Origin: Lysobacter sp. Root494
GTDB lineage: Bacteria > Pseudomonadota > Gammaproteobacteria > Xanthomonadales > Xanthomonadaceae
Reading direction: 5' to 3'
DNA length: 64,000 bases
Assembly (NCBI RefSeq): GCF_001427225.1
Contig: NZ_LMFH01000009.1
Coordinates: 62,001-126,000 of the forward strand
Every line of letters begins with the position of its first letter. Within the stretch, counting starts at the first letter, position 1. The translations under genes and the position numbers were made by a program. Below are positions 5,250 to 57,170 of this stretch, piece by piece. The notes under the pieces were generated by a model. That model ran no database searches and had not been told where the DNA came from. It was given only the letters and a program-made list of their open reading frames with translations.

Positions 5250-7828
<2,579 letters not shown>

Positions 7829-42498: not shown

Positions 42499-43911
42499 TT
42501 ACATCGCCACGTAGTAGGTCGCGATCGCCACGAACACCGCCAATGTCTTGATGATCGTGATCGCAAAGATGTCCTTGTAGGACTGCCGGTGGCTGAGCCC
42601 AGTCACCGCCAGCAGCGTGATCACCGCGCCGTTGTGCGGCAACGTGTCCATGCCGCCCGACGCCATCGAGGCGATGCGATGCAGCACTTCCATCGGAATG
42701 CCGGCGGCCTGCGCATTGGCGATGAACGTATCGGCCATCGCCGCGAGCGCGATGCTCATGCCGCCCGACGCGGAGCCCGTGATGCCCGCGAGCGACGTCA
42801 CCGTCACTGCTTCGTTCACCAGCGGATTCGGGATCGCACCCAGCGCGTTGGCGACGACGAGGAAACCCGGAAGCGCGGCGATCACCGCGCCGAAGCCGTA
42901 TTCCGATGCGGTGTTCATCGATGCGAGCAGCGCACCGCCGATCGCGCTCTTGCCGCCTTCGGCGAAACTCGCCTTCACCGGCTTCCATGCGAACAGCAGC
43001 ACGCAGGCGATGCCGGCCAGCAGGGCGCCTTCCACCGCCCAGATCGCGGCGACCTTCGAGACTTCCTGCACCACCGGCGCGGCCTTGCCCATCGACGACG
43101 GCACGAATTCGTGGCTGGTGCCGTACCACTGCGGGATCAGCACCGAGAACAGCTTGTTGCACACGCCCACCAGCACCAGCGGCAGGATCGCAACGTAGGG
43201 ATTGGCGAGCGCGGTGCCGGCGAAAGCCGCGGGCTCGTTCACCAGCGTGGACGGATCGCCGTAGCCTTCGCCGTTCTTCAATGCGACGCGTCGCCGCCAT
43301 TCCAGGTACGACAGGCCTGCGATCAGGATGAACACCGATCCGCTCACGCCCAGCAGCGGCGCGGCCCAGGAATCGGTGCCGAAGAACGACGTCGGAATGA
43401 TGTTCTGGATCTGCGGTGTGCCCGGCAGCGCGTCCATGGTGAAGGTGAACGCACCCAGCGCGATCGTGCCGGGAATCAGGCGCTTGGGGATGTTGCCCTG
43501 GCGGAAGAGTTCGGCGGCGAACGGATACACCGCGAACACGACGACGAACAGCGACACGCCGCCGTAGGTCAGCAGCGCGCACACCACGACGATCGAGAGC
43601 ATCGCGCGGCCCGCGCCGAATACGCGAATGGTCGAAGCCACGATCGAACGCGAGAAGCCCGACAACTCGATCAGCTTGCCGAACAGGGCGCCGAGCACGA
43701 ACACCGGGAAGTACAGCTTCAGGAAACCGACCATCTTGTCCATGAACAGGCCGGTGAACATCGGCGCGACCAGCGACGGATCGGTCAGCAACACCGCGCC
43801 GAGCGCGGCGACCGGCGCGAACAGGATCACGCTGTGGCCGCGGTAGGCCACGACCATCAGGAAGCACAGCGCGGCGAGAACGACGAGGAATGACAGAAGC
43901 GGGAAGGACAT
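42499..43911 (-). CDS. GntP family permease, probably for D-3-hydroxybutyrate
   Basis: 470 residues, about twelve membrane helices. VAYRGHSVILFAPVAALGAV, LIELSGFSRSIVA, GNIPKRLIPGTIALGAFTF and DALPGTPQIQNIIPTSFF are as in the GntP-branch annotated as D-beta-hydroxybutyrate permeases, which in Pseudomonas sits beside bdhA. Inner-membrane uptake of 3-hydroxybutyrate or gluconate-like acids. The bdhA gene lies 10 kb away in the same neighbourhood, supporting the hydroxybutyrate reading. Divergent from the TonB receptor. Confidence 0.88.
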   Translation of the reverse strand: MSFPLLSFLVVLAALCFLMVVAYRGHSVILFAPVAALGAVLLTDPSLVAPMFTGLFMDKMVGFLKLYFPVFVLGALFGKLIELSGFSRSIVASTIRVFGAGRAMLSIVVVCALLTYGGVSLFVVVFAVYPFAAELFRQGNIPKRLIPGTIALGAFTFTMDALPGTPQIQNIIPTSFFGTDSWAAPLLGVSGSVFILIAGLSYLEWRRRVALKNGEGYGDPSTLVNEPAAFAGTALANPYVAILPLVLVGVCNKLFSVLIPQWYGTSHEFVPSSMGKAAPVVQEVSKVAAIWAVEGALLAGIACVLLFAWKPVKASFAEGGKSAIGGALLASMNTASEYGFGAVIAALPGFLVVANALGAIPNPLVNEAVTVTSLAGITGSASGGMSIALAAMADTFIANAQAAGIPMEVLHRIASMASGGMDTLPHNGAVITLLAVTGLSHRQSYKDIFAITIIKTLAVFVAIATYYVAM

Positions 43912-43981
43912 TCATTGCTCCATCGCGACTGGCGCGAAGTGGGATCGGCCTCGCGCACACTGCACGCGCTGCCTGCTCTTG

Positions 43982-44107
43982 CTCGTCATCCCCGCGAAGG
44001 CGGGGATCCAGCGACTTTTGCTTTCTGCTCCAGGCGCCAGGAGCGAAGACGCTGATCACCAGCACTCCGCGCCGCGAAAAGGTACTTCCGCCTTCGCTGG
44101 AATGACG
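43982..44107. repeat. Terminal-inverted-repeat element, family A copy 3
   Basis: About 126 bp. Left end CTCGTCATCCCCGCGAAGGC with ATCCAGCGACTTTT, right end CCGCCTTCGCTGGAATGACG. The core differs from the other copies. Confidence 0.78.
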
Positions 44108-44177
44108 GGCGTTTTCTCTCGTGTGCCGGAAAGCGATTGCCAGGCGAGTCTCCCGGCCGCGCCGCGGCCGGCCCATT

Positions 44178-44220
44178 GTCCGAAGGTACGATGCCGTCCC
44201 TTCGGCGCCGGCCCTAGCCT
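44178..44220 (+). promoter_or_regulatory. GTAC-box promoter of the TonB receptor gene
   Basis: GTCC-GAAG-GTAC (44178-44189), 24 bases, then the -10-like CTAGCCT (44214-44220). The same layout occurs in front of bdhA and the oligomer hydrolase. The bases GTACGATGCCG are identical to those at the oligomer hydrolase promoter. Confidence 0.68.
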
Positions 44221-44298
44221 TGCGAAAACGGCCCACTCCTGCCGGGGTGCAGGGGTCCGCCGCAACGTGTACGTACGCACCCGTTAGGAGGGGACGCG

Positions 44299-46536
44299 AT
44301 GAAGCGCAAGTATTTGAGTCTGGCGATCGGTTCGGTGCTGGTGACCGCGCTCGCGGCACCGGTGGCGTGGGCGCAGGACGCGGCTCCTTCGGATGCAACG
44401 ACGCAGGAAACCAAGGCAACCAATCTCGGCGCACTGACGGTCACCGCGCGCAAGCGCGAGGAGACTCTGCAGGAAGTACCGGTCGCGGTCACCGCGTTTA
44501 CCGCCGATGCGCTCGACAAGCTTGCCGTCGACGACATCTCTGACCTCGACGCGCAGGTGCCGAACCTCACGGTGTACGCCGCGCGCGGTTCGAGCAGCAC
44601 GCTCACCGCGTACATCCGCGGCGTCGGCCAGTCCGATCCGCTGTGGGGCGTGGATCCGGGCGTCGGCCTGTATCTCGACGACGTGTACATCGCGCGTCCG
44701 CAGGGTGCGCTGCTCGACGTGTTCGACGTCGAGCGCGTGGAAGTGCTGCGCGGCCCGCAGGGCACGCTGTACGGCAAGAACACGATCGGCGGCGCGATCA
44801 AGTACATCTCGCGCGGGCTGCCGCGCGAGTTCGAAGGCAATGCCTCGATGACGGTCGGCAACTACAACCAGCTCGACGTGAAGGCCGCCATCGGCGGTCC
44901 GATCGGCGGCGCCGACAGCGGCCTGCGTGGACGCATCGCGGTGGCGAGTCTCAACCGCGACGGCTTCGGCGAGAACACGGTCACCGACCAGGACGTGAGC
45001 GACAAGGAAATCCTCGCGCTGCGTGGCCAGCTCGGCGCGTACGCGGGCGACAACTTCAACGTGCAGTTCGCGTTCGACTGGATGGACGACCAGTCCGGCG
45101 TGCGCGGCGCGCAGATGCTCGCGCCGAACCGTTTCGTGCCGGGCGTGCAGCCGCTGGATTCGCGCTACGACGTGCGCAACGGCATGCCCAACGTCAACGA
45201 CACCGAGATGAAAGGCATCTCCGCCACCGTGAACTGGCGCGTGAACGACGACCTCAGCCTGAAGTACGTCGTTGCCAAGCGTGAGTCCGACTCCGAAACC
45301 AACATCGACTTCGACACGACCCAGGCCAAGATCGCTGACGTCAAGGCGTTCTACAGTGACCAGCAGGTCAGCCACGAAATCCAGGCCAACTACGATGCAG
45401 GCGGCCGCGCGCGCGGTGTGATGGGCCTGTACAAGTTCGACGGCGACGCCGGCGGGCAGGTCCTCAATAACTTCTTCAACCTTCTGTTCGGTGACACCCA
45501 GGGCGTCGTGCAGACCGAAAGCATCGCGCTGTACGCCGACTGGACCTTTGATCTCACCGAGAAACTCAAGCTCGACGTCGGCGCGCGCTACACCGACGAG
45601 GACAAGCACGCGACCGTGCTCAACCGCGGCTACCGCGACGCGACGTACACGCAGCCGATTTCGGTCGCCGCGAACTTCGACAAGACCATCAACTTCAAGA
45701 ACACCTCGCCGAAGATCTCGCTCGACTACGAAATCACCCCGGACATCATGGTGTACGGCCTGGCCTCGCGCGGCTTCAAGTCCGGCGGCTACAACATCCG
45801 TGCGCAGGCGACCGCGGTGCCGCGTTCGGCCGAGCCGTTCCAGGACGAGCAGGTCGACAGCTATGAAGTCGGCACGAAAATGGGCTTCCTCGATTCCACG
45901 CTGTTCCTGAACCTCGCCGCCTTCCACAACAAGTACGACGACATCCAGCTGTCGATCTTCACCGCCTACGACAGCAACGGCGACGGCACCGACGATGCGT
46001 TCTTCGGCGACTTCACCAACGCAGGCTCGGGCACGGTCAACGGCGCCGAAGTCGAATACCAGTGGCTGCCGACGGCGAACTGGGTGGTGTCGGGCAACTT
46101 CGCGTGGCTCGATGCGAAGTACGACGAGTACATGTTCAAGGGCGTGAACATCGCCGACCAGCAAGAATTCACCAACGCGCCCGAGTTCTCCGGCGCGGTG
46201 AATCTCGAATGGCGCACCGAGCTCGCCAGCGGCGGCAACCTGTCGGCGCGGGTGGGATACAGCTATCAGTCCGAAGTCGTGGCGACGACGGAAGTCGTGC
46301 GCGATCCGGTCACCGGCGCGACGACGCAGCCGATCACGCAGGACGGCTACGGCCTGGTCAACGCGGGCGTGACCTGGCGCCTCAACGACGCGTGGTCGTT
46401 CTCGCTGTCGGGCACCAACCTGGCCGACGAGGAATACCGCACCACCGGCTACAACCTGAATGCCGCGCTTGGCGTCATGACCGGCTTCTACGGCGCACCG
46501 CGCCAGTACGCCCTGACGGCGCGCTACAACTTCTGA
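44299..46536 (+). CDS. TonB-dependent outer-membrane receptor
   Basis: 745 residues. Signal peptide ending VAWAQ, a short TonB-box region LGALTVTARKREETLQEVPV, plug domain with EVLRGPQGTLYGKNTIGGAI, and a 22-strand barrel ending in ALTARYNF with a terminal Phe. Strong ribosome site TTAGGAGGGG. Imports an unidentified substrate; its position in a 3-hydroxybutyrate locus and its promoter box suggest 3HB oligomers or a related acid, which is inference. A good terminator follows. Confidence 0.94.
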   Translation: MKRKYLSLAIGSVLVTALAAPVAWAQDAAPSDATTQETKATNLGALTVTARKREETLQEVPVAVTAFTADALDKLAVDDISDLDAQVPNLTVYAARGSSSTLTAYIRGVGQSDPLWGVDPGVGLYLDDVYIARPQGALLDVFDVERVEVLRGPQGTLYGKNTIGGAIKYISRGLPREFEGNASMTVGNYNQLDVKAAIGGPIGGADSGLRGRIAVASLNRDGFGENTVTDQDVSDKEILALRGQLGAYAGDNFNVQFAFDWMDDQSGVRGAQMLAPNRFVPGVQPLDSRYDVRNGMPNVNDTEMKGISATVNWRVNDDLSLKYVVAKRESDSETNIDFDTTQAKIADVKAFYSDQQVSHEIQANYDAGGRARGVMGLYKFDGDAGGQVLNNFFNLLFGDTQGVVQTESIALYADWTFDLTEKLKLDVGARYTDEDKHATVLNRGYRDATYTQPISVAANFDKTINFKNTSPKISLDYEITPDIMVYGLASRGFKSGGYNIRAQATAVPRSAEPFQDEQVDSYEVGTKMGFLDSTLFLNLAAFHNKYDDIQLSIFTAYDSNGDGTDDAFFGDFTNAGSGTVNGAEVEYQWLPTANWVVSGNFAWLDAKYDEYMFKGVNIADQQEFTNAPEFSGAVNLEWRTELASGGNLSARVGYSYQSEVVATTEVVRDPVTGATTQPITQDGYGLVNAGVTWRLNDAWSFSLSGTNLADEEYRTTGYNLNAALGVMTGFYGAPRQYALTARYNF

Positions 46537-46561
46537 CGCTGGTTCTCCCTGCGGTGGGATT

Positions 46562-46600
46562 GCACGGCGACGGATGCGAATCCGTCGTCGTGCTTTTGTT
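46562..46600 (+). terminator. Rho-independent terminator of the TonB receptor gene
   Basis: GCACGGCGACGGA (46562-46574) pairs with TCCGTCGTCGTGC (46581-46593) with one wobble, followed by TTTTGTTT. Confidence 0.85.
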
Positions 46601-46689
46601 TGCGCGCGTCGCATCCATTCGCAGCCGGGAGAACAAGTGCAGTTATCCTCGCGGGCATGCTGCACTCGTCTGAAGCCTGACCCGCCGCC

Positions 46690-49600
46690 ATGCTCCCCGC
46701 CGGCCTGATCCTCCTCGCCGCCCTGCTCTGGCTGGGCCTGCTGTTCGCGGCGGGCGTGTACGGCGAGCGCCACCCGCAGGCGTTCGCGACGCGCTGGAAG
46801 CACATCTACGCGCTCTCGCTCGCGGTGCACTGCACCTCGTGGACGTTCTACGGCACGGTCACGCAGGCCGCGCGCCACGGCTGGCCGCTGCCGCCGACCT
46901 TCGTCGGCGCGATCCTGCTCTACGCCTTCGCCGCCGCCCTGATGGTGCGGCTGGTGAAGCTCGCGCGCGAAACGAATGCGACGTCCATCGCCGACCTCAT
47001 CGCCACGCGCCTGGGCAAGGACACCGGGCTCGCCGCGACGGTGACGCTGGTCGCCGCGCTCGGTCTGCTGCCGTACATCGCGCTGCAGCTCAAGGCGATG
47101 GCGATGAGTTTCGCCGTGCTCACCGGCCGCGACGGCAATGCCACGAACGTGCCGGTGTGGCAGGACATCGCGCTGTACGTCGCGTTGGCCATGGCGCTGT
47201 TCGCGATGCTGTTCGGCACGCGCCGGGTCAGCGCCGCCGAACACAATCGCGGACTCGTGTTGGCGATGGCATTCGAGTCGCTGCTGAAACTGGGCGCGAT
47301 GCTCGCGCTGGGTGTGTTCGTGTGGTGGGGATTGGGCGACCTGCCCGCCGCTGCGCCGGTGCCCCCGCCCGTGTCCGGCGGCGGTTTCGTGCCGCTGATG
47401 CTGCTCGGCGCGTTCGCGATGTTCATCCTGCCGCATCAGTTCCATATCGCCGTAGTCGAATGCCGCGACGAGCGCGACGTGCACACCGCGCGCTGGCTGT
47501 TCCCGTTGTATCTCGTGCTGATCGCCTTGCCGGTGCTGCCGCTCGCGCGCGCGGGGCAGGTGTTGTTCGCCGGCACCAACGTGTCATCCGACATGTACGT
47601 GCTCGCGTTGCCGTTGTCGCAGGGCCACGCAGGGCTCGGCCTGTTCGCGTTCCTCGGTGGCATGAGCGCGGCCACCGGCATGGTCGTGGTGAGCACGCTC
47701 ACGCTGAGCCTGATGATCGGCAACCACTGGCTCGCGCCAGGATTGCTGCGCCGGATGTGGAAGGACACGTCGTGGAAGCATCCGCCGCTGCTGCGCGATG
47801 GCCACGACGACCTGCGCGGCGCGGTGCTGCTGCTGCGCCGCGCGGGGATCGTCGTGATCATGCTCCTCGCATGGATGTACGGCCGCGTCGTCGCCGGCAG
47901 CGCGGCGCTGGCGGATGTCGGCGCGGTGAGTTTCTCCGCGCTGGCGACACTCGCGCCGGCGCTGGCGTTCGCGGTGTGGCGGCCGCACACGCCGCCGCGT
48001 GCGGCGATCGCAGGCATCGCCGCGGGCTTCGCGACCTGGGCGTGGTGCCTGCTGCTGCCGGTGCTGGCGACCTCGCGCGGCGTCACCCCGGAATGGGTCA
48101 CGCACGGGCCCCTCGGATGGCAATGGCTCGCGCCTGACGCACTGTTCGGATTGACCGGCTGGAGCCGCCTGGGCCGCGCAGTGGGTGCGAGCCTGTTCGT
48201 CGGCACCGCGGTAACGGCACTGGTCGCGGTATGGCGCACGGCGCCTGCGCGACGTGAATCGCGCGGGCTCGATGCCGCGACGTTGCGCACTGCCGGACGC
48301 CGCTTCCTGCCGCGCGAACGCGTTGCCGAACTGCTTGCGTCCGCACCCGTCACCGGCTCCGTTCCACATGAGGTCGAAGCCGCGATGGAGCGCGAACTCG
48401 CCGCCGTGCTCGGCTCCGCATCGGCGCGCGTGCTGCTCGACGCGGCGCGGCGCGAAGGCGGCAACGTCCACGACCTCGACGCCGTCGCCGCGATCGTCGA
48501 CACCGCCTCGCAGGACCTGCGCTTCAACCAGCGCGTGCTCGAAGCCGCGCTGCAGAACATGAGCCAGGGCATCAGCGTGGTTGATGCGCAGCTGCGCCTG
48601 GTCGCGTGGAATCGCCGCTACGTCGAACTGTTCGGCTTCCCCGACGCGCTGCTGAAGATCGGCACTCCCGTCGCCGAGCTCTCCGCGTGGACGCTGCAGA
48701 AGATGCCGCACAAGGGCTCGCTGCAGCAGGCGCTGGCGCGCCGTCTCGCCTTCATGCGCGCGGGATCGCCGCATCTGTCCGAGCGCGTGTTTCCCGACGG
48801 CAGCATCGTGGAAATCCGTGGCAACCCGATGCCGGGTGGCGGTTTCGTCGCCACCTTCACCGACGTCACCGAGTTCCGCCGCGCCGAAGCCGAACTGCTG
48901 CAGGCGAATGAAACCCTCGAACAGCGTGTCGGCGAACGCACTACGCTGCTCGAACAGGCCAAGCGCGAAGCCGAGTCCGCGAACGATGCGAAGAGCCGCT
49001 TCCTCGCCGCGATCGGCCACGACCTGCTGCAGCCGTTGCATGCGGCGCACCTGTTCACCGATGCGCTTGCGCAGCAGCTAGGTGAACAACCCGCGCGCGA
49101 ACCGCTGACGCAGAACATTCTTGTGCAAATCCGCGGCGCGCTCGATTCGACCACCGGCCTCCTCACCGGCCTGCTCGACATGTCGCGCCTGGAGGCCGGT
49201 GGCCTCGTGCCCGAGCCGCGCGCGATGCCGTTGGCCGATGTGCTGGAGCCGCTCGCCTCGGAGTTCCGCGCGCTCGCCGCCGAACGCGGTTTGCAGCTGC
49301 GCTACGTGCCCACGGCCTTGTGGGTCGATACCGACCCGCAGTTGCTGCGCCGCGTGCTGCAGAACTTCCTCGCCAACGCGGTGCGGTACACCACGAACGG
49401 ACGCATCGTGCTCGGCGTCCGCCGCAGCGGAGGCGCCGCGCGGATCGAAGTGCACGACACCGGCCCCGGCATCGCGCCCGAACACCAGCAGATCATCTTC
49501 GAGGAGTTCCGTCGCGGTGGTGATGCGCCGGGGCAGGGCCTCGGATTGGGGCTCGCCATCGCCGAACGCATCGCCGAACTGCTGCGCGCGCCCCTGATGC

Positions 49601-50076
49601 TGCGCAGCGAACCCGGGCGCGGCACGATGTTCGCGATCACCGTGCCCGCCGTACCGTCGCGCGTGCGCGAAGCCGCACCCCTGCCGCCGCCGCGGCCGCG
49701 CCTGCCCGGGGTGCATGTCCTCGTGGTCGACAACGAGCCGCTGGCGATGGAAGCCTTGCGCCGCGTGCTCGAAGGCTGGGGTTGCCGCGTCAGTGCCGCC
49801 GCGCGCGGCAGCGACGCGCACGCGGCGATCGCCAGCGATCCGGCCGATGCGTGGCTGTTCGACTACCACCTCGACGACGACACCGGCGTCGCCCTGCGTG
49901 AACGCCTCGTCCAGCAGCACGGCGCGCGCCCGACCGTGATCCTCAGCGCCGACCACACCGAAGCCGTGCGCCGCGATGTGCAGGAAGCCGGCCTGCCCCT
50001 GCTGATGAAGCCGCTCAAGCCGCTGGCGCTCAAATCCGTCCTGGACCGGCTCCTGGCCGCGCGCGCGGTGTCGTAA
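46690..50076 (+). CDS. Transporter-sensor hybrid histidine kinase, CrbS/MxtR-like
   Basis: 1128 residues. N-terminal sodium:solute symporter (SLC5-type) domain with about thirteen helices (1-510), a linker (about 525-600), PAS domain (620-720, QGISVVDAQLRLVAWNRRYVELF over two parts), histidine kinase with H777 in AAIGHDLLQPLHAAHLF, ATPase domain with GQGLGLGLAIAER, and a C-terminal receiver with D1058 in WLFDYHLDDDTG. This is the architecture of CrbS/MxtR, which with a LuxR-type partner controls acetate use. A LuxR-type regulator lies 3 kb downstream. Here the likely signal is a short-chain acid such as 3-hydroxybutyrate or acetate. Confidence 0.9.
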   Translation: MLPAGLILLAALLWLGLLFAAGVYGERHPQAFATRWKHIYALSLAVHCTSWTFYGTVTQAARHGWPLPPTFVGAILLYAFAAALMVRLVKLARETNATSIADLIATRLGKDTGLAATVTLVAALGLLPYIALQLKAMAMSFAVLTGRDGNATNVPVWQDIALYVALAMALFAMLFGTRRVSAAEHNRGLVLAMAFESLLKLGAMLALGVFVWWGLGDLPAAAPVPPPVSGGGFVPLMLLGAFAMFILPHQFHIAVVECRDERDVHTARWLFPLYLVLIALPVLPLARAGQVLFAGTNVSSDMYVLALPLSQGHAGLGLFAFLGGMSAATGMVVVSTLTLSLMIGNHWLAPGLLRRMWKDTSWKHPPLLRDGHDDLRGAVLLLRRAGIVVIMLLAWMYGRVVAGSAALADVGAVSFSALATLAPALAFAVWRPHTPPRAAIAGIAAGFATWAWCLLLPVLATSRGVTPEWVTHGPLGWQWLAPDALFGLTGWSRLGRAVGASLFVGTAVTALVAVWRTAPARRESRGLDAATLRTAGRRFLPRERVAELLASAPVTGSVPHEVEAAMERELAAVLGSASARVLLDAARREGGNVHDLDAVAAIVDTASQDLRFNQRVLEAALQNMSQGISVVDAQLRLVAWNRRYVELFGFPDALLKIGTPVAELSAWTLQKMPHKGSLQQALARRLAFMRAGSPHLSERVFPDGSIVEIRGNPMPGGGFVATFTDVTEFRRAEAELLQANETLEQRVGERTTLLEQAKREAESANDAKSRFLAAIGHDLLQPLHAAHLFTDALAQQLGEQPAREPLTQNILVQIRGALDSTTGLLTGLLDMSRLEAGGLVPEPRAMPLADVLEPLASEFRALAAERGLQLRYVPTALWVDTDPQLLRRVLQNFLANAVRYTTNGRIVLGVRRSGGAARIEVHDTGPGIAPEHQQIIFEEFRRGGDAPGQGLGLGLAIAERIAELLRAPLMLRSEPGRGTMFAITVPAVPSRVREAAPLPPPRPRLPGVHVLVVDNEPLAMEALRRVLEGWGCRVSAAARGSDAHAAIASDPADAWLFDYHLDDDTGVALRERLVQQHGARPTVILSADHTEAVRRDVQEAGLPLLMKPLKPLALKSVLDRLLAARAVS

Positions 50077-50388
50077 CGGCGGGGGACCACCCGGCTCGGC
50101 AGCGATGCCGGCGACGTCGCTTCAGCTTTCAGCGGCGGCGCCGATACCGTTTGCAACGGCCGTGCACTGCAGCCGGAAGCGGCAACGCAGCTCCTCCAGC
50201 GGCAGCGCACGGCTTTGCCCACTCCGCCTAAACCATTAACGGGGTGATTGCCTTCACGGAGAAAAGGTGACCGTCGTCGCGGAATACGCGCTGACGCCTT
50301 CCTACGCTGTCCGGGCATGGGCGGCGTGCTGCGCCAGCCTGTGGCGCGCGTGCGTCTGGGGAGCCCGTGCGCACCATGGAGAACCAAA
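50077..50388. other. Intergenic region before the GAF-GGDEF-EAL gene
   Basis: 312 bases. In-frame TTG starts upstream of 50389 exist, so some of it could be coding, but the peptide it would encode is Arg-rich and unlike the family. No clear promoter, repeat or riboswitch seen. Confidence 0.4.
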
Positions 50389-53301
50389 ATGGCCGGGCGA
50401 CGCGTCGGCAACATTCGCAGAAATGATGACAGCCAGCAGCACGCGGACCTGACCGCGAGGCTGCTGCGTGCGTCGACGCCTGCCGAAGCCGCCGCCGTGC
50501 TGTTCGACGAGATGCCGTGGCTGGAGAAGCGCGGCGCCAGCGTGCACTGGTCGACGCACTGGCCCGAGCAGATCAGGAGCTATCCGGAACGTCGCGGCCC
50601 CGGCAACGTCGAGGCACTGGCCGTCGAGTTCCTGCATGACGTACGTGCGGGCCTCGGCTCCGAATCCATGCGCCTGTTGCATGACGACGGCGACAGCACC
50701 ATTGCCGTCCTGCATTGCGCACTGGATTGCCCGGAGGTGGACGAAAGCATCCGCACGCGGCTGGGCGAGCTGCTACGCCTGCAGCGCATGCAGGAGAGCG
50801 TGGTGCGCCTGGAAGGCGCGGAAAAACTGCAGCGCTCGCTGTACGCCATCGCCGACATGGCCGGTTCGGATCTCGAGATGCCGGACATGCTGCGCGGCCT
50901 GCATCGGATCGTTGCCGACCTAATGTATGCGGAGAACTTCTACATCGCGCTGTACGACCGCGAGTGCGACAGCATCCGCTTCCTGTACTTCATGGACGTG
51001 GTCGATGCGACGCTGCCGGTGGAAGGCGATTCGATCCCACTGTCGCGCATCGAGCACGGCCTCACCTGGCACCTGATCCGCGACCGGCGCCCGCTGATGG
51101 GGAGCACCGCGGAGATGCGGCGGCAGGTTTCCGGCCCGCTGCGCCTGCATGGCGCGGACAGCAGCGACTGGCTCGGCGTGCCGATGATGCGCGAGGGCGA
51201 GGTCCAGGGCGTGGTGGTGGTGCAGAGCTATACCGGCCAGCGCCACTACACGACCGCGGAGATGTCGCTGCTGGCCTTCGTCGCCGAACACATCCTCACC
51301 GCCCTGGAACGCAAGCGCGGGCGCGCCGAACTCGAACAGCGCGTCGTCGAGCGCACCCAGCAGCTGGAAACGGCGAACCAGGAGCTGCGCCGCGAAGTGA
51401 GCGAACGCGAACGCGGCGAACGCCTGCAGGCCGCGCTGTACCGGATCGCCGCGCTGGCCAGCTTCGACGAGAGCAGCGCTTCCTTCTACCGGCACGTCCA
51501 CGCCATCGTCGGCGAGCTGCTGGATGCGCGCAATTTCTACATCGCGCTGCGCTCGCCCGATGGCACGAGCGTGATGTTCCCGTACGCCGCCGACCAGAGC
51601 GCGCGCGAATGGCCGGCGCGCTCGTCGGGCCGCGGCCTGACCGAGTACGTGCTGCGCACGGGCCGGCCGCAGCTGGTGGACCACGCGCGCGCAAAGGCGC
51701 TGCTCGCGGAGGGCGAGATCGACTCATCGCTGATGGACGACGCTACCCGCGTATGGCTCGGCGCGCCGCTGCTCGGCATGGAAGGTTCGATCGGCGTGGT
51801 TGCGCTGCAGAGCTACGACGACGCGACCATCTACAACGAGCGCGACGCCGAGCTGCTGACCTTCGTGTCCTACCAGATCGCCAGCAGCCTGCAACGCCGC
51901 CACGCCGCCGAACTGCTGCGGCAGGCCAACGCGGAGCTCGAGGTGCGCGTGGAAGAGCGCACGCTCGAGTTGCGCGAGCAGATCCGCGTACGCGAGCAGA
52001 TCGAAGCGCAGCTGCAGCACCAGGTGATGCACGACGCATTGACCCGCCTGCCCAATCGCGTCTACCTGCGCGACCGCATCGAACGCGCGATCGCGCGCGT
52101 GCGGCGTGATGTCGGCGACGGCTTCGGCCTGCTGTACATCGACGTCGACCGCTTCAAGGTCGTCAACGACAGCCTTGGCCACCGCGCGGGCGACGAGATG
52201 CTGCTGGAAGTCTCGCGCAGGCTCGCATCGTGCGTGCGCGAACCCGACACGGTCGCGCGCCTGGCCGGCGATGAGTTCGTGCTGCTGCTCGAGCACGTCG
52301 TGCAGCCGGAGGACTCGTGCAAGGTGGCGCAGCGCGTGCTCGAAGCGCTCGAGCAACCGATGCAGGTGGCCGGGCGCGAACTACGGATCTCCGCCAGCAT
52401 CGGCATCGCCCTGGCCGGCAGCGACTGCGAATCGGCCGACCGCATCCTCCACGACGCCGACGCCGCGCTCTATCGCGCCAAGAGCACCGGCCGCAACCGC
52501 TTCGTCCTCTTCGACGAGGCGATGCACCGCACGGCGATGGGCGTGCTCGACATGGAGCAGGCGCTGCGCAGCGCGCTCACGCGCGACGAGTTCCTCCCGT
52601 ACTTCCAGCCGATCGTGCGCCTCGACGACGAGCGCATCGTCGGCTACGAGGCGCTGTTGCGCTGGCGGCATCCGCAGCGCGGCATCCTCGGGCCGCCGGA
52701 TTTCCTGAAGGTGGCCGAAGACAGCGGCCTGATCGAGGAGATCGACTGGCGGCAGTTCCGCCTCGCGCTCGAAGCCGCGCGCGAACTCGTGCAGGACGGC
52801 AGCTTCATCACGCTCAACGTTTCGCCGCGCCTGTTCGCCCACAACGACTTCGACCAACGCCTGATCGCGATGACGCGCGAAGTAGATTTCGACCCCCGCC
52901 GCCTGCGCCTGGAGGTCACCGAGGGCACGCTGCTGGGCGATCCGCAAACCGTCGCCGCGACGCTGCATCGGCTGCGCGATGCGCACATCGAGTCGGCGCT
53001 CGACGATTTCGGCACCGGCTACTCGTCGCTCGGCCATGTGCATCACTTCCCGCTGAAGATGATCAAGATCGACCGCAGCTTCATCACGCCGTTCGCGGCC
53101 GGCGTGGCGCCGCGCAGTTCGGCGGTGATCGAGGCGATCCTCGCGCTCGGCCATGCGCTCGGCGCGGAGATCGTCGCCGAAGGCATCGAAACCCAGTACC
53201 AGCGCGAAGTGCTGCAGGCGATGGGTTGCGTGTACGGGCAGGGCTTCCTGTTCTCGCGGCCGGCGCCGGCGGGGCACTGGCTCGCCGCTCTGCGCAAGTG
53301 A
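50389..53301 (+). CDS. Dual GAF, GGDEF and EAL domain cyclic-di-GMP protein
   Basis: 970 residues from ATG 50389, chosen for its GGAG ribosome site; an in-frame TTG at 50248 is possible. Two GAF domains (about 150-300 and 340-500), each followed by a coiled-coil linker (EQRVVERTQQLETANQEL; EVRVEERTLELREQIR), a GGDEF domain whose signature reads AGDEF (626-630), and an EAL domain with E754 in YEALLRW, DDFGTGYSSL and VAEGIETQYQ. The altered first Gly is tolerated in some active cyclases. EAL catalytic residues look intact, so phosphodiesterase activity is likely. Placed between the sensor kinase and its probable response regulator. Confidence 0.9.
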   Translation: MAGRRVGNIRRNDDSQQHADLTARLLRASTPAEAAAVLFDEMPWLEKRGASVHWSTHWPEQIRSYPERRGPGNVEALAVEFLHDVRAGLGSESMRLLHDDGDSTIAVLHCALDCPEVDESIRTRLGELLRLQRMQESVVRLEGAEKLQRSLYAIADMAGSDLEMPDMLRGLHRIVADLMYAENFYIALYDRECDSIRFLYFMDVVDATLPVEGDSIPLSRIEHGLTWHLIRDRRPLMGSTAEMRRQVSGPLRLHGADSSDWLGVPMMREGEVQGVVVVQSYTGQRHYTTAEMSLLAFVAEHILTALERKRGRAELEQRVVERTQQLETANQELRREVSERERGERLQAALYRIAALASFDESSASFYRHVHAIVGELLDARNFYIALRSPDGTSVMFPYAADQSAREWPARSSGRGLTEYVLRTGRPQLVDHARAKALLAEGEIDSSLMDDATRVWLGAPLLGMEGSIGVVALQSYDDATIYNERDAELLTFVSYQIASSLQRRHAAELLRQANAELEVRVEERTLELREQIRVREQIEAQLQHQVMHDALTRLPNRVYLRDRIERAIARVRRDVGDGFGLLYIDVDRFKVVNDSLGHRAGDEMLLEVSRRLASCVREPDTVARLAGDEFVLLLEHVVQPEDSCKVAQRVLEALEQPMQVAGRELRISASIGIALAGSDCESADRILHDADAALYRAKSTGRNRFVLFDEAMHRTAMGVLDMEQALRSALTRDEFLPYFQPIVRLDDERIVGYEALLRWRHPQRGILGPPDFLKVAEDSGLIEEIDWRQFRLALEAARELVQDGSFITLNVSPRLFAHNDFDQRLIAMTREVDFDPRRLRLEVTEGTLLGDPQTVAATLHRLRDAHIESALDDFGTGYSSLGHVHHFPLKMIKIDRSFITPFAAGVAPRSSAVIEAILALGHALGAEIVAEGIETQYQREVLQAMGCVYGQGFLFSRPAPAGHWLAALRK

Positions 53302-53319
53302 TCCCGCGCGTCGTCGCGA

Positions 53320-53982
53320 TCACTCGATCTGCCGCGCCGGATCGCTCAGTTCGAGTTCGCGCAGCACCACGCCGGCCTGGGTGCGGTTGCGCACGCCCAG
53401 GCGCTCGAAGATCGCGGTGAGGTGCGCCTTCACCGTGCGCTCCTGCACGTCGAGGCGGTCGGCAATCTGCTTGTTGAGCAGGCCTTCGGCGACCAGCACC
53501 AGTACGCGGAACTGCTGCGGCGACAGGCTCGCCAGGCGCGCGGCGAGATCGGCATCGTGCGTGGACGAGCGCGCGCGCGACACCGGCGCGCGCAACGCGG
53601 CGGGCAGCCACTGTTCGCAGGCGAGCACGGTGCGGATCGCCTCGCGCAGCTCGTCGAGGCCGGAACTCTTGGGCAGGTAACCCGCGGCGCCGTGGTCGAG
53701 CGCGCGGCGGATCACGCGCGGATCGTCGTTAGCCGACACGACCACGACTGCGACGCCCGGAAACTGCGCGCGAACCGCCGCGAGGCCGGCCAGCCCGTGG
53801 TTGCCCGGCATGTGCAGGTCGAGCAGGACCAGGTCGATGTCGGGTTCCGATTCGAGCACCGCCAGCACGCTTTCAAGCGAATCGGCCTCGCGCACGCGCA
53901 GGTCGGCGACGGCGTCGGCCGCGGCACCGCGCAGCGCGGCACGGAACAGCGGGTGGTCGTCAGCGATCAGCAGCGTGGGCAT
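53320..53982 (-). CDS. LuxR/NarL-type response regulator, CrbR/ErdR-like
   Basis: 220 residues. Receiver with acidic pocket ADDHPLF and phospho-acceptor D55 in LLDLHMPGN, then a C-terminal LuxR helix-turn-helix (about 150-205: LSPQQFRVLVLVAEGLLNKQIA, RTVKAHLTAIFERLGVRNR in two parts). The best candidate partner of the transporter-sensor kinase at 46690. Last gene of a minus-strand operon after bdhA and the GNAT gene; its start overlaps the GNAT stop by 23 bases. Being in the bdhA operon, it would be controlled by the same promoter it may bind. Confidence 0.93.
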   Translation of the reverse strand: MPTLLIADDHPLFRAALRGAAADAVADLRVREADSLESVLAVLESEPDIDLVLLDLHMPGNHGLAGLAAVRAQFPGVAVVVVSANDDPRVIRRALDHGAAGYLPKSSGLDELREAIRTVLACEQWLPAALRAPVSRARSSTHDADLAARLASLSPQQFRVLVLVAEGLLNKQIADRLDVQERTVKAHLTAIFERLGVRNRTQAGVVLRELELSDPARQIE

Positions 53983-54445
53983 GCGCGCCTTGCAGCTCGA
54001 GGGTCATGAAGATGCTGTTCGGATCGGCGGTGTAGCGGCCGAACGGAGCGCACTCGGTGAAGCCGAAGGCGGCGTACAGCCGGCGCGCCGCTTCGAAGTA
54101 GGCCATCGAGCCAGTTTCCAGGCTCACGCATCGATAGCCGGACGCGCGTGCTTCGGCAAGCAGGTGCTCCAGCATCGTGCGTGCCACGCCCTTGCGCAGA
54201 TGCGCGCGCGCGGTCCGCATCGACTTGATTTCGGCATGGGCACCGTCGAGACGCTGCAAGGCACCGCAGCCCAGTAGCGCGTCGCCATCGTGCAGCGTCC
54301 ACACGCGCACATCGGGATGGCGGAGTCCGTCGAGATCGAGCGCGTGCTGGCTCTCCGCCGGCGCGGTCGCCTGCATGGCGGCGCGGTGTTCCCCCAGCAG
54401 TGCTGCAAACGCGGGGCTGTCGAGGTCGGCGTGCCGGATCTGCAT
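53960..54445 (-). CDS. GNAT family N-acetyltransferase
   Basis: 161 residues. Typical GNAT core with IKSMRTARAHLRKGVARTML (acetyl-CoA pyrophosphate loop RKGVAR), SLETGSMAYFEAARRLYAAF and FGFTECAPFG. Similar to PhnO/YafP-like small-molecule acetyltransferases; substrate unknown. Lies four bases after the bdhA stop and overlaps the response regulator start by 23 bases, so the three are translated from one mRNA with probable coupling. Confidence 0.9.
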   Translation of the reverse strand: MQIRHADLDSPAFAALLGEHRAAMQATAPAESQHALDLDGLRHPDVRVWTLHDGDALLGCGALQRLDGAHAEIKSMRTARAHLRKGVARTMLEHLLAEARASGYRCVSLETGSMAYFEAARRLYAAFGFTECAPFGRYTADPNSIFMTLELQGAHAHAADR

Positions 54446-54449
54446 CGCG

Positions 54450-55214
54450 CTACTGCACCGTCCAGCCACCGTCTACGTCGATCGTATGCCCGGTGATGTT
54501 CCGTGCCGCTGGCGACATCAAAAACGCGGTGATGCCGGCGAGTTCCTCGAAGGTGATGAACACGCCCTTCGGCATCGGCTTGAGCATGACTTCGCTCACC
54601 ACCTGGGACTCGGGAATGCCGCGCGTGCGCGCCTGGTCGGCGATCTGCTTGTCGACCAGCGGCGTCTTCACGTAGGTCGGGCAGATCGTGTTGACGGTGA
54701 TGTCGGTATCGGCCGTTTCCAGCGCGACCACCTTGGAGAAGCCGAGGAGGCCGTGTTTCGCCGCGACGTACGCGCTCTTGTACGGGGAGGCGACCAGCGA
54801 GTGGATCGAGCCGATGTTGACGATGCGGCCGAAGCCGCGTTCGCGCATGCCCGGCAACAGCGCGCGGGTGAGCCGCGCGACGCCGACCAGCATCACGTCG
54901 ACCAGGAACTCCCACTTCTGCATCGGGAATTCCTCCAGCGGCGCGACGTGTTGAAGGCCTGCGTTGTTGACCAGCACGTCGACCGGGCGCGAGACCGCGC
55001 CGAGCGCGGCTTCGATGCTGTGGTCGGAGGTGACGTCCAGCGCGAGCGCCTGCGCGGAGCCGCCCGCCGCGCGCAGCGCTTGCGCCACGGTTTCGGCGGC
55101 GTCGAGGTTCACGTCGGTGACCACGATGTAGTGGCCGGCGTGCGCGAGTTCGGCGGCGATGCCGGCACCGATGCCGCTGCCGGCACCGGTGATGAGGATG
55201 CAGCGGGAAGCCAT
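54450..55214 (-). CDS. bdhA: D-3-hydroxybutyrate dehydrogenase
   Basis: 254 residues, short-chain dehydrogenase. Oxidises D-3-hydroxybutyrate to acetoacetate with NAD; cytoplasmic. NAD-binding TGAGSGIGAGIA, NNAG, catalytic S136, Y149 and K153 (SAYVAAK), and the BdhA-specific TICPTYVKTPLVDKQI plus the ending ITGHTIDVDGGWTVQ. First gene of the bdhA-GNAT-regulator operon, divergent from the oligomer hydrolase. The ATG at 55214 has a weak ribosome site. Confidence 0.95.
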   Translation of the reverse strand: MASRCILITGAGSGIGAGIAAELAHAGHYIVVTDVNLDAAETVAQALRAAGGSAQALALDVTSDHSIEAALGAVSRPVDVLVNNAGLQHVAPLEEFPMQKWEFLVDVMLVGVARLTRALLPGMRERGFGRIVNIGSIHSLVASPYKSAYVAAKHGLLGFSKVVALETADTDITVNTICPTYVKTPLVDKQIADQARTRGIPESQVVSEVMLKPMPKGVFITFEELAGITAFLMSPAARNITGHTIDVDGGWTVQ

Positions 55215-55247
55215 GGTGGGAGTGTCATGAAAGCCGCGGGAAACCGC

Positions 55248-55289
55248 AGCCTAGCAGGCGCGCATCGGCGCCTCGTGGTACCAAAGTAC
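55248..55289 (-). promoter_or_regulatory. GTAC-box promoter of the bdhA operon
   Basis: On the minus strand: GTAC-TTTG-GTAC (55278-55289), 23 bases, then -10-like CTAGGCT (55248-55254), giving a leader of roughly 27 bases before bdhA. The box is the same one used in the opposite direction by the oligomer hydrolase gene. Confidence 0.68.
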
Positions 55290-55319
55290 GATGCCGCGCG
55301 CGGTGCGGCTTGCTAGGGT
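55278..55319 (+). promoter_or_regulatory. GTAC-box promoter of the oligomer hydrolase gene
   Basis: GTAC-CAAA-GTAC (55278-55289), 23 bases, then -10-like CTAGGGT (55313-55319). The expected transcription start would fall on or next to the ATG at 55326, so the mRNA may be leaderless. Confidence 0.68.
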
Positions 55320-55325
55320 CGCGGC

Positions 55326-57170
55326 ATGACGAAGATGCCCAGGCTATCGGCGAGCCACGCCGGAATCGCACACGGTGCGGCCACGTTCTGCTGCCTCGTG
55401 CTCGCCCTGGCGGGCTGCGCCACCGGACCTCGACCACAGGAGTCTGCCGCCATGCTGGTTTCGAGCGTCCGGGTGACCACGCACCGCGACGGCGACGACC
55501 TGCTCACCGCGGGCCTGGGCCGCGACGGCCTGCGCGCCATGGTCGCGCCCGCCTTCGCCGATCCCGCGCATCCCACGCCGGTCGAACTCCGCCGCCGCGC
55601 GCTGTGGAGCAACTGGCGCGGCATCGCCGACCTGACGCCCGGCGGCGGTTACGGCGACTGGTACGGCAGCACCGCGACGGTGCCCGGCCGCGAATTCAGC
55701 GCACTGGCGACGTTGCCCGGCGCGAAGCAGCCGCATCGCGTGCTGGTGCAGCTGCCGGATGCGTTCGAGGCGGCGAAGCCATGCGTGGTGGTGGCCGCAT
55801 CGTCGGGGTCGCGCGGCATCTACGGCGCGATTGCCGTGGCCGGCCCATGGGCGCTGCCGAAGGGCTGCGCGGTGGCGTACACCGACAAGGCCGCGGGCAC
55901 CGATTATTTCGACCTAGATGCGGGGCAGGGCGTCGCGCTCGACGGCACCGTGGCGGGCGCCGATGCAACGCTCGCATTCGCACCCGCTGCGTCTCCCGCG
56001 CACGGCATCGCCGTCAAGCACGCGCATTCGCAGGACAACCCCGAAGCCGACTGGGGCCGCCACGTGAAGCAGGCGGCGGAGTTCGCCCTGCAGACGCTCA
56101 ACGATGCGTATCCGCAGCGCGGTTTCACCTTCGCCAACACGCGCGTGATCGCCGTCGGTATCTCCAACGGCGGCGGCGCGGTGCTGCGCGCGGCCGAGCT
56201 CGAAGGCGACTGGCTCGACGCCGTCGTCGCCGGCGAGCCGAACGTCAATGCCGAAGGCGCGCGTCCGCTCTACGACTACACGACCGAAGCCGCGCTGCTG
56301 ATGCCGTGCGCAATGCTCGATCTCGAAGGCCTGCCGGCTTCGCCGCTGTCCGCGCAGGCGCGCGCGATGGCGCCGGTGCGCTGCACCTCGCTCGCCGCGA
56401 GCGGTGTGTTGCCCGCGGGCGATATGAAGACGCAGGCGCGCGCCGCGCATGAAGCGTTGCGCGCGTCGGGCTGGACCGAGGCGGCGCTACGGTCGGGCGC
56501 GCTGTCGGTCGATTTCGACCTGTGGCGCGCGATCGCGGTGACGTATGCATCTGCTTACGGACGCTACGCGCCGGGCGAGCATCCCTGCGGCTACGGTTTT
56601 GCCGCGCAGAACCCCGACTTCACTCCGCGTGCGGCGAAGGACAGCGAACGCGCCGCGTGGTGGGCCGACGGCAGCGGCATTCCGCCGGGCGCGGGCGTCG
56701 GCATCATCGATACGAAACTCGCCGCGCCGGACTTCACCCTTGCCGGACTGCAGTGCCTGCGCGCGCTATGGACCGGGCAGGGCGCGGACGCCGATCGCGT
56801 GCGCGCCGGCGTGGCCGAATTGCGCGCCGGGCTGCCGCGCGCGGAGCTGCCGGTGGTGGTGATCCATGGCGTCGACGACGGCCTGGTGCCGATTACCTTT
56901 ACCAGCCAGCCGTGGGTCGCGAAGGCGCAGACGGCGGGGCGCGACGTGCGCTACTGGCAGGTGCGCAATGCACAGCACTTCGATGCGTTCCTGGCGTTGC
57001 CGGACTATCGTGTGCGCTATGTGCCGCTGCTGCCGTACGTGTATGCGGCGCTCGATCGGGTCATGGCGCACCTGGACGATCCGGCGCAGCCGTTGCCGCC
57101 GAGTGCGGTGATCGAGACGGCGCCGGCGGCGGGTCCGCTGACGGCGGGGCAGTTGGCGATTCCGCACTGA
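55326..57170 (+). CDS. D-3-hydroxybutyrate oligomer hydrolase, lipoprotein
   Basis: 614 residues. Lipobox LAGC with lipidated Cys31. The mature protein matches the 3HB-oligomer hydrolase family: DGLRAMVAPAFADPAHPTPVELRRRA in parts, GGGYGDWYGS, the nucleophile S280 in GISNGGGA, and a late VVIHGVDDGLVP with the catalytic acid. It splits short 3-hydroxybutyrate oligomers into monomers, here at the envelope. Divergent from bdhA, which oxidises the product. No canonical ribosome site precedes the ATG, in line with a leaderless mRNA. Confidence 0.93.
   Translation: MTKMPRLSASHAGIAHGAATFCCLVLALAGCATGPRPQESAAMLVSSVRVTTHRDGDDLLTAGLGRDGLRAMVAPAFADPAHPTPVELRRRALWSNWRGIADLTPGGGYGDWYGSTATVPGREFSALATLPGAKQPHRVLVQLPDAFEAAKPCVVVAASSGSRGIYGAIAVAGPWALPKGCAVAYTDKAAGTDYFDLDAGQGVALDGTVAGADATLAFAPAASPAHGIAVKHAHSQDNPEADWGRHVKQAAEFALQTLNDAYPQRGFTFANTRVIAVGISNGGGAVLRAAELEGDWLDAVVAGEPNVNAEGARPLYDYTTEAALLMPCAMLDLEGLPASPLSAQARAMAPVRCTSLAASGVLPAGDMKTQARAAHEALRASGWTEAALRSGALSVDFDLWRAIAVTYASAYGRYAPGEHPCGYGFAAQNPDFTPRAAKDSERAAWWADGSGIPPGAGVGIIDTKLAAPDFTLAGLQCLRALWTGQGADADRVRAGVAELRAGLPRAELPVVVIHGVDDGLVPITFTSQPWVAKAQTAGRDVRYWQVRNAQHFDAFLALPDYRVRYVPLLPYVYAALDRVMAHLDDPAQPLPPSAVIETAPAAGPLTAGQLAIPH

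Follow-up and report, generated by a model that had tools for sequence, protein, structure and literature searches.

A shared GTAC operator box and its probable CrbR-type regulator at a 3-hydroxybutyrate locus of Lysobacter sp. Root494

Which protein would act at the GTAC box that stands before the 3-hydroxybutyrate (3HB) genes of Lysobacter sp. Root494? We considered this question in a stretch of 64,000 nucleotides (nt) of that genome (contig NZ_LMFH01000009.1, positions 62,001 to 126,000; hereafter the window), in which the box precedes the genes for a TonB-dependent receptor, a 3HB-oligomer hydrolase and the 3HB dehydrogenase BdhA. From the comparisons below, we propose that the box very probably serves as operator for the LuxR-type response regulator encoded in the locus itself, a CrbR/ErdR paralogue that would activate a regulon for scavenging 3HB and polyhydroxybutyrate (PHB) and would regulate itself. 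The anatomy of the boxes, their conservation, fixed spacing and gene context, and their co-occurrence with the regulator were computed directly. The boxes and their promoter elements are the following (TSS, transcription start site).

44178..44189, + strand: operator box 1, GTCCGAAGGTAC, before the TonB receptor gene and probably also before the divergent permease gene
44176-44192: box 1 in its 17-mer frame, TTGTCCGAAGGTACGAT
44214..44220, + strand: -10 element CTAGCCT of the TonB receptor promoter, 24 nt past box 1
44147..44152, - strand: weak -10-like GAGACT of a proposed permease promoter served by box 1
55278..55289, both directions: operator box 2, GTACCAAAGTAC, common to the divergent bdhA and hydrolase promoters
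55276-55292: box 2 in its 17-mer frame, TGGTACCAAAGTACGAT
55313..55319, + strand: -10 element CTAGGGT of the hydrolase promoter, gap 23 nt, predicted TSS about 55326
55248..55254, - strand: -10 element CTAGGCT of the bdhA promoter, gap 23 nt, predicted TSS about 55241

The arrangement GTMC-N4-GTAC, followed after 23-24 nt by CTAGNNT, occurs three times in the window, and two boxes form all three occurrences. An earlier note on this DNA had described three promoters, each with its GTAC box and a CTAGNNT element at 24, 23 and 23 nt; the sites and gaps stand, while the count of three separate boxes does not, as box 2 is read both ways. If transcription starts 7 nt past the -10 element, the centre of the box falls at about -43, which is the activator-type position that had been suggested.

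The hydrolase family is present in 141 of 198 genomes of the bacterial family, and 81 hydrolase promoters were collected from 80 of these 141 genomes, with one second copy and the window included. The 17-mer TGGTACCAAAGTACGAT is identical in 24 of the 81, in many genera, and at least 13 of its 17 positions are matched in 72; in 367 of 400 random 480-bp stretches of the same loci the best match was 9-11 positions. Spacing was measured on 71 boxes, one of the 72 scoring best on the other strand. On the hydrolase side a TAnnnT element starts 24 or 25 nt past the box in 67 of the 71 (0.39 loci per offset in shuffles), and on the divergent bdhA side it does so in 39 (0.24 per offset in shuffles). 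Before the receptor, 27 of the 29 loci with a detected receptor have a degenerate form of the box with TA...T 22-27 nt further on. In eight genomes (G004, G011, G012, G013, G022, G042, G048 and G049; G and L numbers denote genomes and loci) the permease and receptor genes lie away from the hydrolase and the box accompanies them, even though in G004 and G049 both proteins are only 34-37% identical to those of the window. These alignments indicate that the GTAC box before 3HB genes is real and widely conserved.

The box with its -10 element is also rare outside this context. Within the window GTACN{22,26}CTAGNNT has exactly three matches (44186 and 55286 on the + strand, 55248 on the - strand), a number reached by none of 100 dinucleotide shuffles (mean 0.11). 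Over the whole 3.44-Mb genome, GTACN4GTACN{23,26}TAGNNT matches twice and GTCCN4GTACN{23,26}TAGNNT once, these being the three window sites and no others; the first-order Markov expectation per 3.5-Mb genome is 0.020 and 0.085, respectively. In 40 whole genomes from 38 genera, all selected for encoding the hydrolase, the two patterns gave 41 and 20 matches against 0.8 and 3.4 expected from the same kind of model, a palindromic box with a -10 element on both sides being scored as two matches. Of these 61, against about 4 expected, 60 precede 3HB/PHB genes (receptor 26, hydrolase 23, bdhA 9, scoA 1, PhaZ7-like 1), the sole exception being a match in G046. A single-genome scan with GTMCNNNNGTMC proved too loose, giving 93 and 88 matches and 283 and 282 in its reversed control.

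Two strong CrbR/ErdR-like regulators are encoded in the Root494 genome, one directly downstream of acs and the other in the 3HB locus. The latter has receiver and GerE domains (PF00072 and PF00196) and NF041830 as its best NCBIfam match (E 1.1e-65), with a score of 221 bits that lies below the cut-off of 390, as do the 241.5 bits of the acs-linked paralogue. In a quick tree whose rooting is unsure, the acs-linked type groups with Pseudomonas and Halopseudomonas rows (22 rows, SH-aLRT 97), the Pseudomonas ones presumably being CrbR itself, and the window regulator falls outside. This regulator has no acs link; it is the other paralogue that acs and its box accompany.

Each of the two types appears together with its own kind of box. 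We took the best acs gene of each of the first 40 genomes with up to about 450 bp upstream, and a GAC-N4-GTC box (e.g. TACGACCAAGGTCTAAG) was found before acs in all 25 genomes that have both the acs-type regulator and an acs match, as against 1 of 14 genomes without that regulator (Fisher p 1.7e-9), namely G036, which is 94% complete. G049 has the acs-type regulator but no acs match, and only a loose TAC..GTC match precedes acs in G002 and G042. Of the 25 genomes, 23 have the acs-type regulator, with a SEAT helix, in the flank of acs; G004 and G088 carry it on a different contig, and there identity was the only basis for its typing. Of 76 loci that have the 3HB-type regulator, 72 carry the GTAC box before the hydrolase; of the 5 without it, none does (Fisher p 4.9e-6). 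A further regulator survey covered 80 of the 101 remaining hydrolase-bearing genomes, and G073, with a weak hydrolase and no regulator match at threshold, was left out. The five hydrolase-bearing genomes that lack the 3HB type (G028, G060, G161, G171 and G177) come from two genera, and all have a SEAT-type regulator beside acs and a GAC..GTC acs box; four of them (G060, G161, G171 and G177) bring the acs box to 29 of 29 genomes with the acs-type regulator. The regulator of the locus had been named as the natural binder, and these counts favour it; acs promoters had been thought to share the box, and they carry instead the GAC..GTC type that goes with the second, acs-linked regulator.

Operator matrices were aligned on the dyad axis, using 72 hydrolase boxes (those below 13/17 were dropped, G088 among them) and 25 acs boxes. 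In the hydrolase boxes position 3 is G in 69 and position 4 is T in 63, while positions 13 and 14 are A and C, respectively, in all 72. In the acs boxes position 3 is C in 21 and position 14 is T in 22, with G at 4 and C at 13 in all 25. Two residues that are otherwise fixed set the recognition helices apart: the 3HB type has Q180 (38/40) and R182 (40/40), the acs type S180 and A182 (both 23/23). Residue 182 presumably corresponds to the base-contacting lysine in DosR. Among the best 80 named loci of a longer list, a GTAC-type box precedes a detected pathway gene in 46 of the 56 with R182, in genera including Lysobacter, Pseudoxanthomonas, Stenotrophomonas, Thermomonas, Luteimonas, Arenimonas, Rhodanobacter and Dyella, and a GAC..GTC box precedes acs in 9 of the 10 SEAT/TEAT-type loci that hold acs. 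Perhaps the CrbR paralogues are insulated from each other by matched changes of operator (GAC..GTC versus TAC..GTA, with outer G/C) and of helix (S180/A182 versus Q180/R182), the 3HB type commanding the whole PHB-scavenging pathway in Lysobacterales (depolymerase, TonB-dependent oligomer importer, permease, oligomer hydrolase, BdhA and CoA transferase) and the Alteromonadales having arrived at, or retained, the 3HB-type operator with another helix (SESTVKQH); for this wider proposal we see the scales as level.

Several observations weigh against assigning the GTAC box to the 3HB-type regulator. Four of the 76 loci with that regulator fall below 13 of 17 positions (G009, 12, with the right half intact; G088, 12; G100, 11, where the hydrolase match is partial and the region may be misplaced; G034, 10), and 10 of the 56 R182 loci have no GTAC box before a detected gene, several of their contigs holding few genes. 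Both Fisher p-values are too small because of shared ancestry, the regulator losses coming from two genera only. Boxes of the GAC..GTC type occur in the 3HB-type loci L302 and L303 (Stenotrophomonas maltophilia, before the receptor; regulator helix QLRTVKAH) and L318 and L322 (before receptor or hydrolase), and six Alteromonadales/Rheinheimera loci have a GTAC-type box (e.g. TAGTACGATGGTACTAG) before the receptor without R182. Because of both sets of exceptions R182 is a lead and not a rule, and as the sole cause of GTAC specificity it is ruled out by the Alteromonadales-type loci. A matrix of four Pseudomonas sites of the ACTU motif, the published CrbR site, scores box 2 at 8.9 and box 1 at 5.1, with at least 14 chance places in the window scoring higher; the matrix gives no separation from chance because the half-sites differ, and it was dropped for comparison with acs promoters of the same genomes. 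Finally, patterns reversed but not complemented match twice and once in the Root494 genome, equal to the real ones, and 13 and 27 times in the 40 genomes. Their letters (CATG, CCTG) may simply be commoner; since these controls are not low and composition matters, single-genome counts are weak, and conservation and gene context decide.

It follows from the ACTU-like dyad axis and promoter position that the boxes could be read as ordinary ACTU sites of the acs-linked CrbR, or as sites used by both regulators without discrimination, GTAC being a tolerated variation. The left half is TAC in three of the four Pseudomonas sites used from the consulted part of the ACTU paper (PMC5715377), and the GAC..GTC-type boxes in S. 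maltophilia and the two other 3HB-type loci point the same way. We nevertheless find this reading unlikely: among the 14 genomes in which the acs-type regulator is missing, a GAC..GTC acs box is lacking in 13 and a GTAC-type hydrolase box (at least 13/17) is present in 12, all five genomes without the 3HB type possess the acs-linked regulator and the acs box but no hydrolase box, and position 13 is A in 72 of 72 boxes of one kind and C in 25 of 25 of the other. An unlinked regulator, for example of the LysR, TetR or GntR type, binding the palindrome as activator or repressor is still more improbable, for although a palindrome at -43 would suit several families in general, the axis and position resemble ACTU, the box is missing where the linked regulator is missing (in two genera), and the Alteromonadales-type loci combine a GTAC box with a comparable gene set. 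An artefact of chance or promoter composition, without function, could draw on the reversed-pattern counts and on CTAGNNT alone perhaps being a common -10 form, yet with 60 of 61 real matches before pathway genes, a 17-mer identical in 24 of 81 promoters of many genera and a fixed spacing it is barely credible. The 3HB-type regulator of the locus thus remains our preferred candidate for the box.

A few related loci deserve mention. The six from Alteromonadales and Rheinheimera (L329, L331, L332, L341, L343 and L344) hold relatives of bdh, receptor, regulator and sensor; their helices are SESTVKQH, KETTVKKH and QETTIKQH, and in five of the six a -10 element was counted by eye at +25. G029 has two copies of the locus (L095 and L113), the regulator of the second grouping with that of S. 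maltophilia in the tree and its receptor box being CTGGACCTAGGTCCACT. A third CrbR-like type was seen in L434 and L436 (G171 and G177), with helix AENTVKVH and 48-50% identity to both others; it adjoins a sensor relative in L434, and further matches at 47-54% suggest that it is not rare. A TAnnnT spacing of 24 nt is ruled out for acs promoters (0/25), many of which (e.g. L009 and L213) have GCACACT or a close form about 35 nt past the ACTU box, approximately one helical turn further. Upstream of acs in L042 (about 6947-7030) lies a second, perfect GAC-type dyad, GACCATGGTC, near a divergent gene that is porin-like by eye and may also be under the acs-linked regulator.

The genes of the locus, in window coordinates, are as follows (ORF, open reading frame).

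42499..43911, - strand: permease-like protein, divergent from the receptor, named by look and context
44299..46536, + strand: TonB-dependent receptor (PF00593 and PF07715)
46690..50076, + strand: CrbS-like hybrid sensor, with PAS, HisKA, HATPase and receiver domains after an N-terminal part
50374..53301, + strand: GAF-GAF-GGDEF-EAL protein, between sensor and regulator
53320..53982, - strand: LuxR-type response regulator, 3HB-linked CrbR/ErdR paralogue (NF041830 ErdR; helix QERTVKAH), proposed binder of the box
53960..54469, - strand: GNAT acetyltransferase ORF, overlapping bdhA and the regulator gene
54450..55214, - strand: bdhA, 3-hydroxybutyrate dehydrogenase (TIGR01963, above cut-off)
55326..57170, + strand: 3-hydroxybutyrate-oligomer hydrolase (PF10605, E 1.9e-140)

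The bdhA, GNAT and regulator ORFs overlap and therefore probably form a single operon behind box 2. Autoregulation, as the earlier note had it, is in keeping with this placement and with several relatives in which the box lies directly before the regulator gene. The GNAT ORF gave no tblastn match at 1e-10 in 40 other loci. A relative of the TonB receptor is present in 28 of 40 other loci, and from its locus we propose it as an importer of 3HB oligomers. The GAF-GAF-GGDEF-EAL gene occupies the same place in only 1 of 40 other loci (the congener L075) and may be a link to cyclic di-GMP or a recent insertion. At the hydrolase the predicted transcript start coincides with or adjoins the ATG at 55326 (the following ATG is at 55335; region 55314-55335), for which reason the mRNA may be leaderless, or nearly so, in Root494.

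Among further targets, the permease probably has the fourth promoter. The permease-like protein itself had no match in Pfam or NCBIfam searches. In its direction from box 1 a weaker [GC]ANACT element is kept at offset 24-27 in 24 of 26 loci, from which box 1 probably drives this gene too. In the window 266 bp separate the start of the permease gene from box 1, as against 55-91 bp in 22 of 25 other loci; between the two lies an inverted repeat (43981-44110) with 23-nt arms, 87% complementary, which looks like a dispersed repeat element. The genome matches of box plus -10 element also led to scoA (3-oxoacid CoA-transferase, TIGR02429) and to a PhaZ7-like hydrolase. There were 39 scoA matches, of which 38 promoters were examined, G049 being left out; 32 score higher than 95% of 2000 random stretches, and in 28 of the 32 a -10 element stands in register. 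Root494 has a weaker scoA box, GTGCCCGAAAGTACGGT, with TAGAAT at +25 (C8:247264-247248), and no box was found in the scoA promoter of G028, which lacks the 3HB-type regulator. From these promoters scoA is a probable further target of that regulator. The PhaZ7-like protein matches NF050060 (1.1e-14, far below cut-off), PhaZ7 in the PDB (3e-11) and Pfam Lipase_2. Of nine protein matches eight are close, and six of the eight have a right half GTAC and TAnnnT at exactly +25; only four promoters exceed the 95% point of random stretches and two have nothing. No PhaZ7-like match was obtained in the Root494 genome at 1e-10. The earlier note had missed the sharing of one box by two promoters as well as the probable permease and scoA targets.

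In the mechanism we envisage, the CrbS-like sensor (46690-50076) would sense 3HB or a related short-chain acid and phosphorylate the regulator (53320-53982), a dimer of which would bind the palindrome GTMC-N4-GTAC at about -43, beside RNA polymerase at the TAnnnT -10 element. Box 1 would activate the TonB receptor gene and probably the divergent permease gene; box 2 would act both ways, on the oligomer hydrolase and on bdhA-GNAT-regulator, by which the regulator would raise its own level. The weaker scoA site would add the next catabolic step. The acs-linked paralogue would use GAC-N4-GTC boxes, the two being presumably insulated from one another. This names a probable regulator, operator and target set for the use of 3HB and PHB, a natural bioplastic, in a large bacterial family, and offers the TonB receptor as a concrete candidate for 3HB oligomer import. 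It also provides a natural experiment on the divergence of duplicated two-component regulators, in which presence or absence of a paralogue predicts its own box type, and a single symmetric base change in each half-site and two residues of the helix are the candidate differences.

How does this compare with known systems? In Pseudomonas, 3HB catabolism is under a sigma-54 activator. The enzymatic job, 3HB uptake and dehydrogenation, is the same, whereas the window has a sigma-70-type -10 element and a two-component regulator. With NarL and DosR (DevR) the regulator shares its receiver and GerE architecture and sequence matches (PDB 1a04 and 1zlk, respectively), while operators and signals are different. 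A literature search over titles and abstract beginnings found no 3HB-type CrbR, its box or a 3HB/PHB regulon, and one on a Xanthomonas -10 form found nothing.

The closest counterpart is CrbS/CrbR (MxtR/ErdR), to which regulator and sensor are homologous, those of the window being known from sequence alone. CrbS consists of an SLC5 transporter domain, STAC and a hybrid histidine kinase; in the window sensor PAS, HisKA, HATPase and receiver domains were found, with no Pfam match in the first 620 residues, and nearly the whole protein aligns, at 34-43% identity, with sensors encoded next to SEAT/TEAT-helix regulators. ErdR-dependent band shifts of promoter fragments are described for P. putida in the part of that report consulted (PMC8402216). 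According to the portions of the CrbR paper used here (Sepulveda & Lupas 2017, PMC5715377), the ACTU motif is an imperfect inverted repeat of 17 bp that spans -52 to -36 of acs, ahead of an RpoD promoter; CrbR-dependent activation needs it, and five xanthomonads are listed with the motif upstream of acs and/or actP. In the Pseudomonas sites taken from that paper the left half is TAC or GAC, the right half GTC. Since it resembles this motif, the box is not wholly undescribed, contrary to what the earlier note had supposed. The window boxes are likewise 17-bp imperfect palindromes with the same dyad axis and an activator-type placement, box 1 lying at about -51 to -35 from the predicted TSS. They differ from the published Pseudomonas sites in the outer G3/C14 and in the right half, where the two window boxes and all 72 hydrolase boxes used for the matrix have GTA instead of GTC. 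The targets are 3HB/PHB genes and not acs/actP, the presumed regulator is a separate paralogue with QERTVKAH instead of SEATVKAH, and box 2 serves two divergent promoters. Judged from these alignments, the box is a variant of ACTU that has its axis and position in common with the published motif and is new in its right half, its target genes and its type of regulator.

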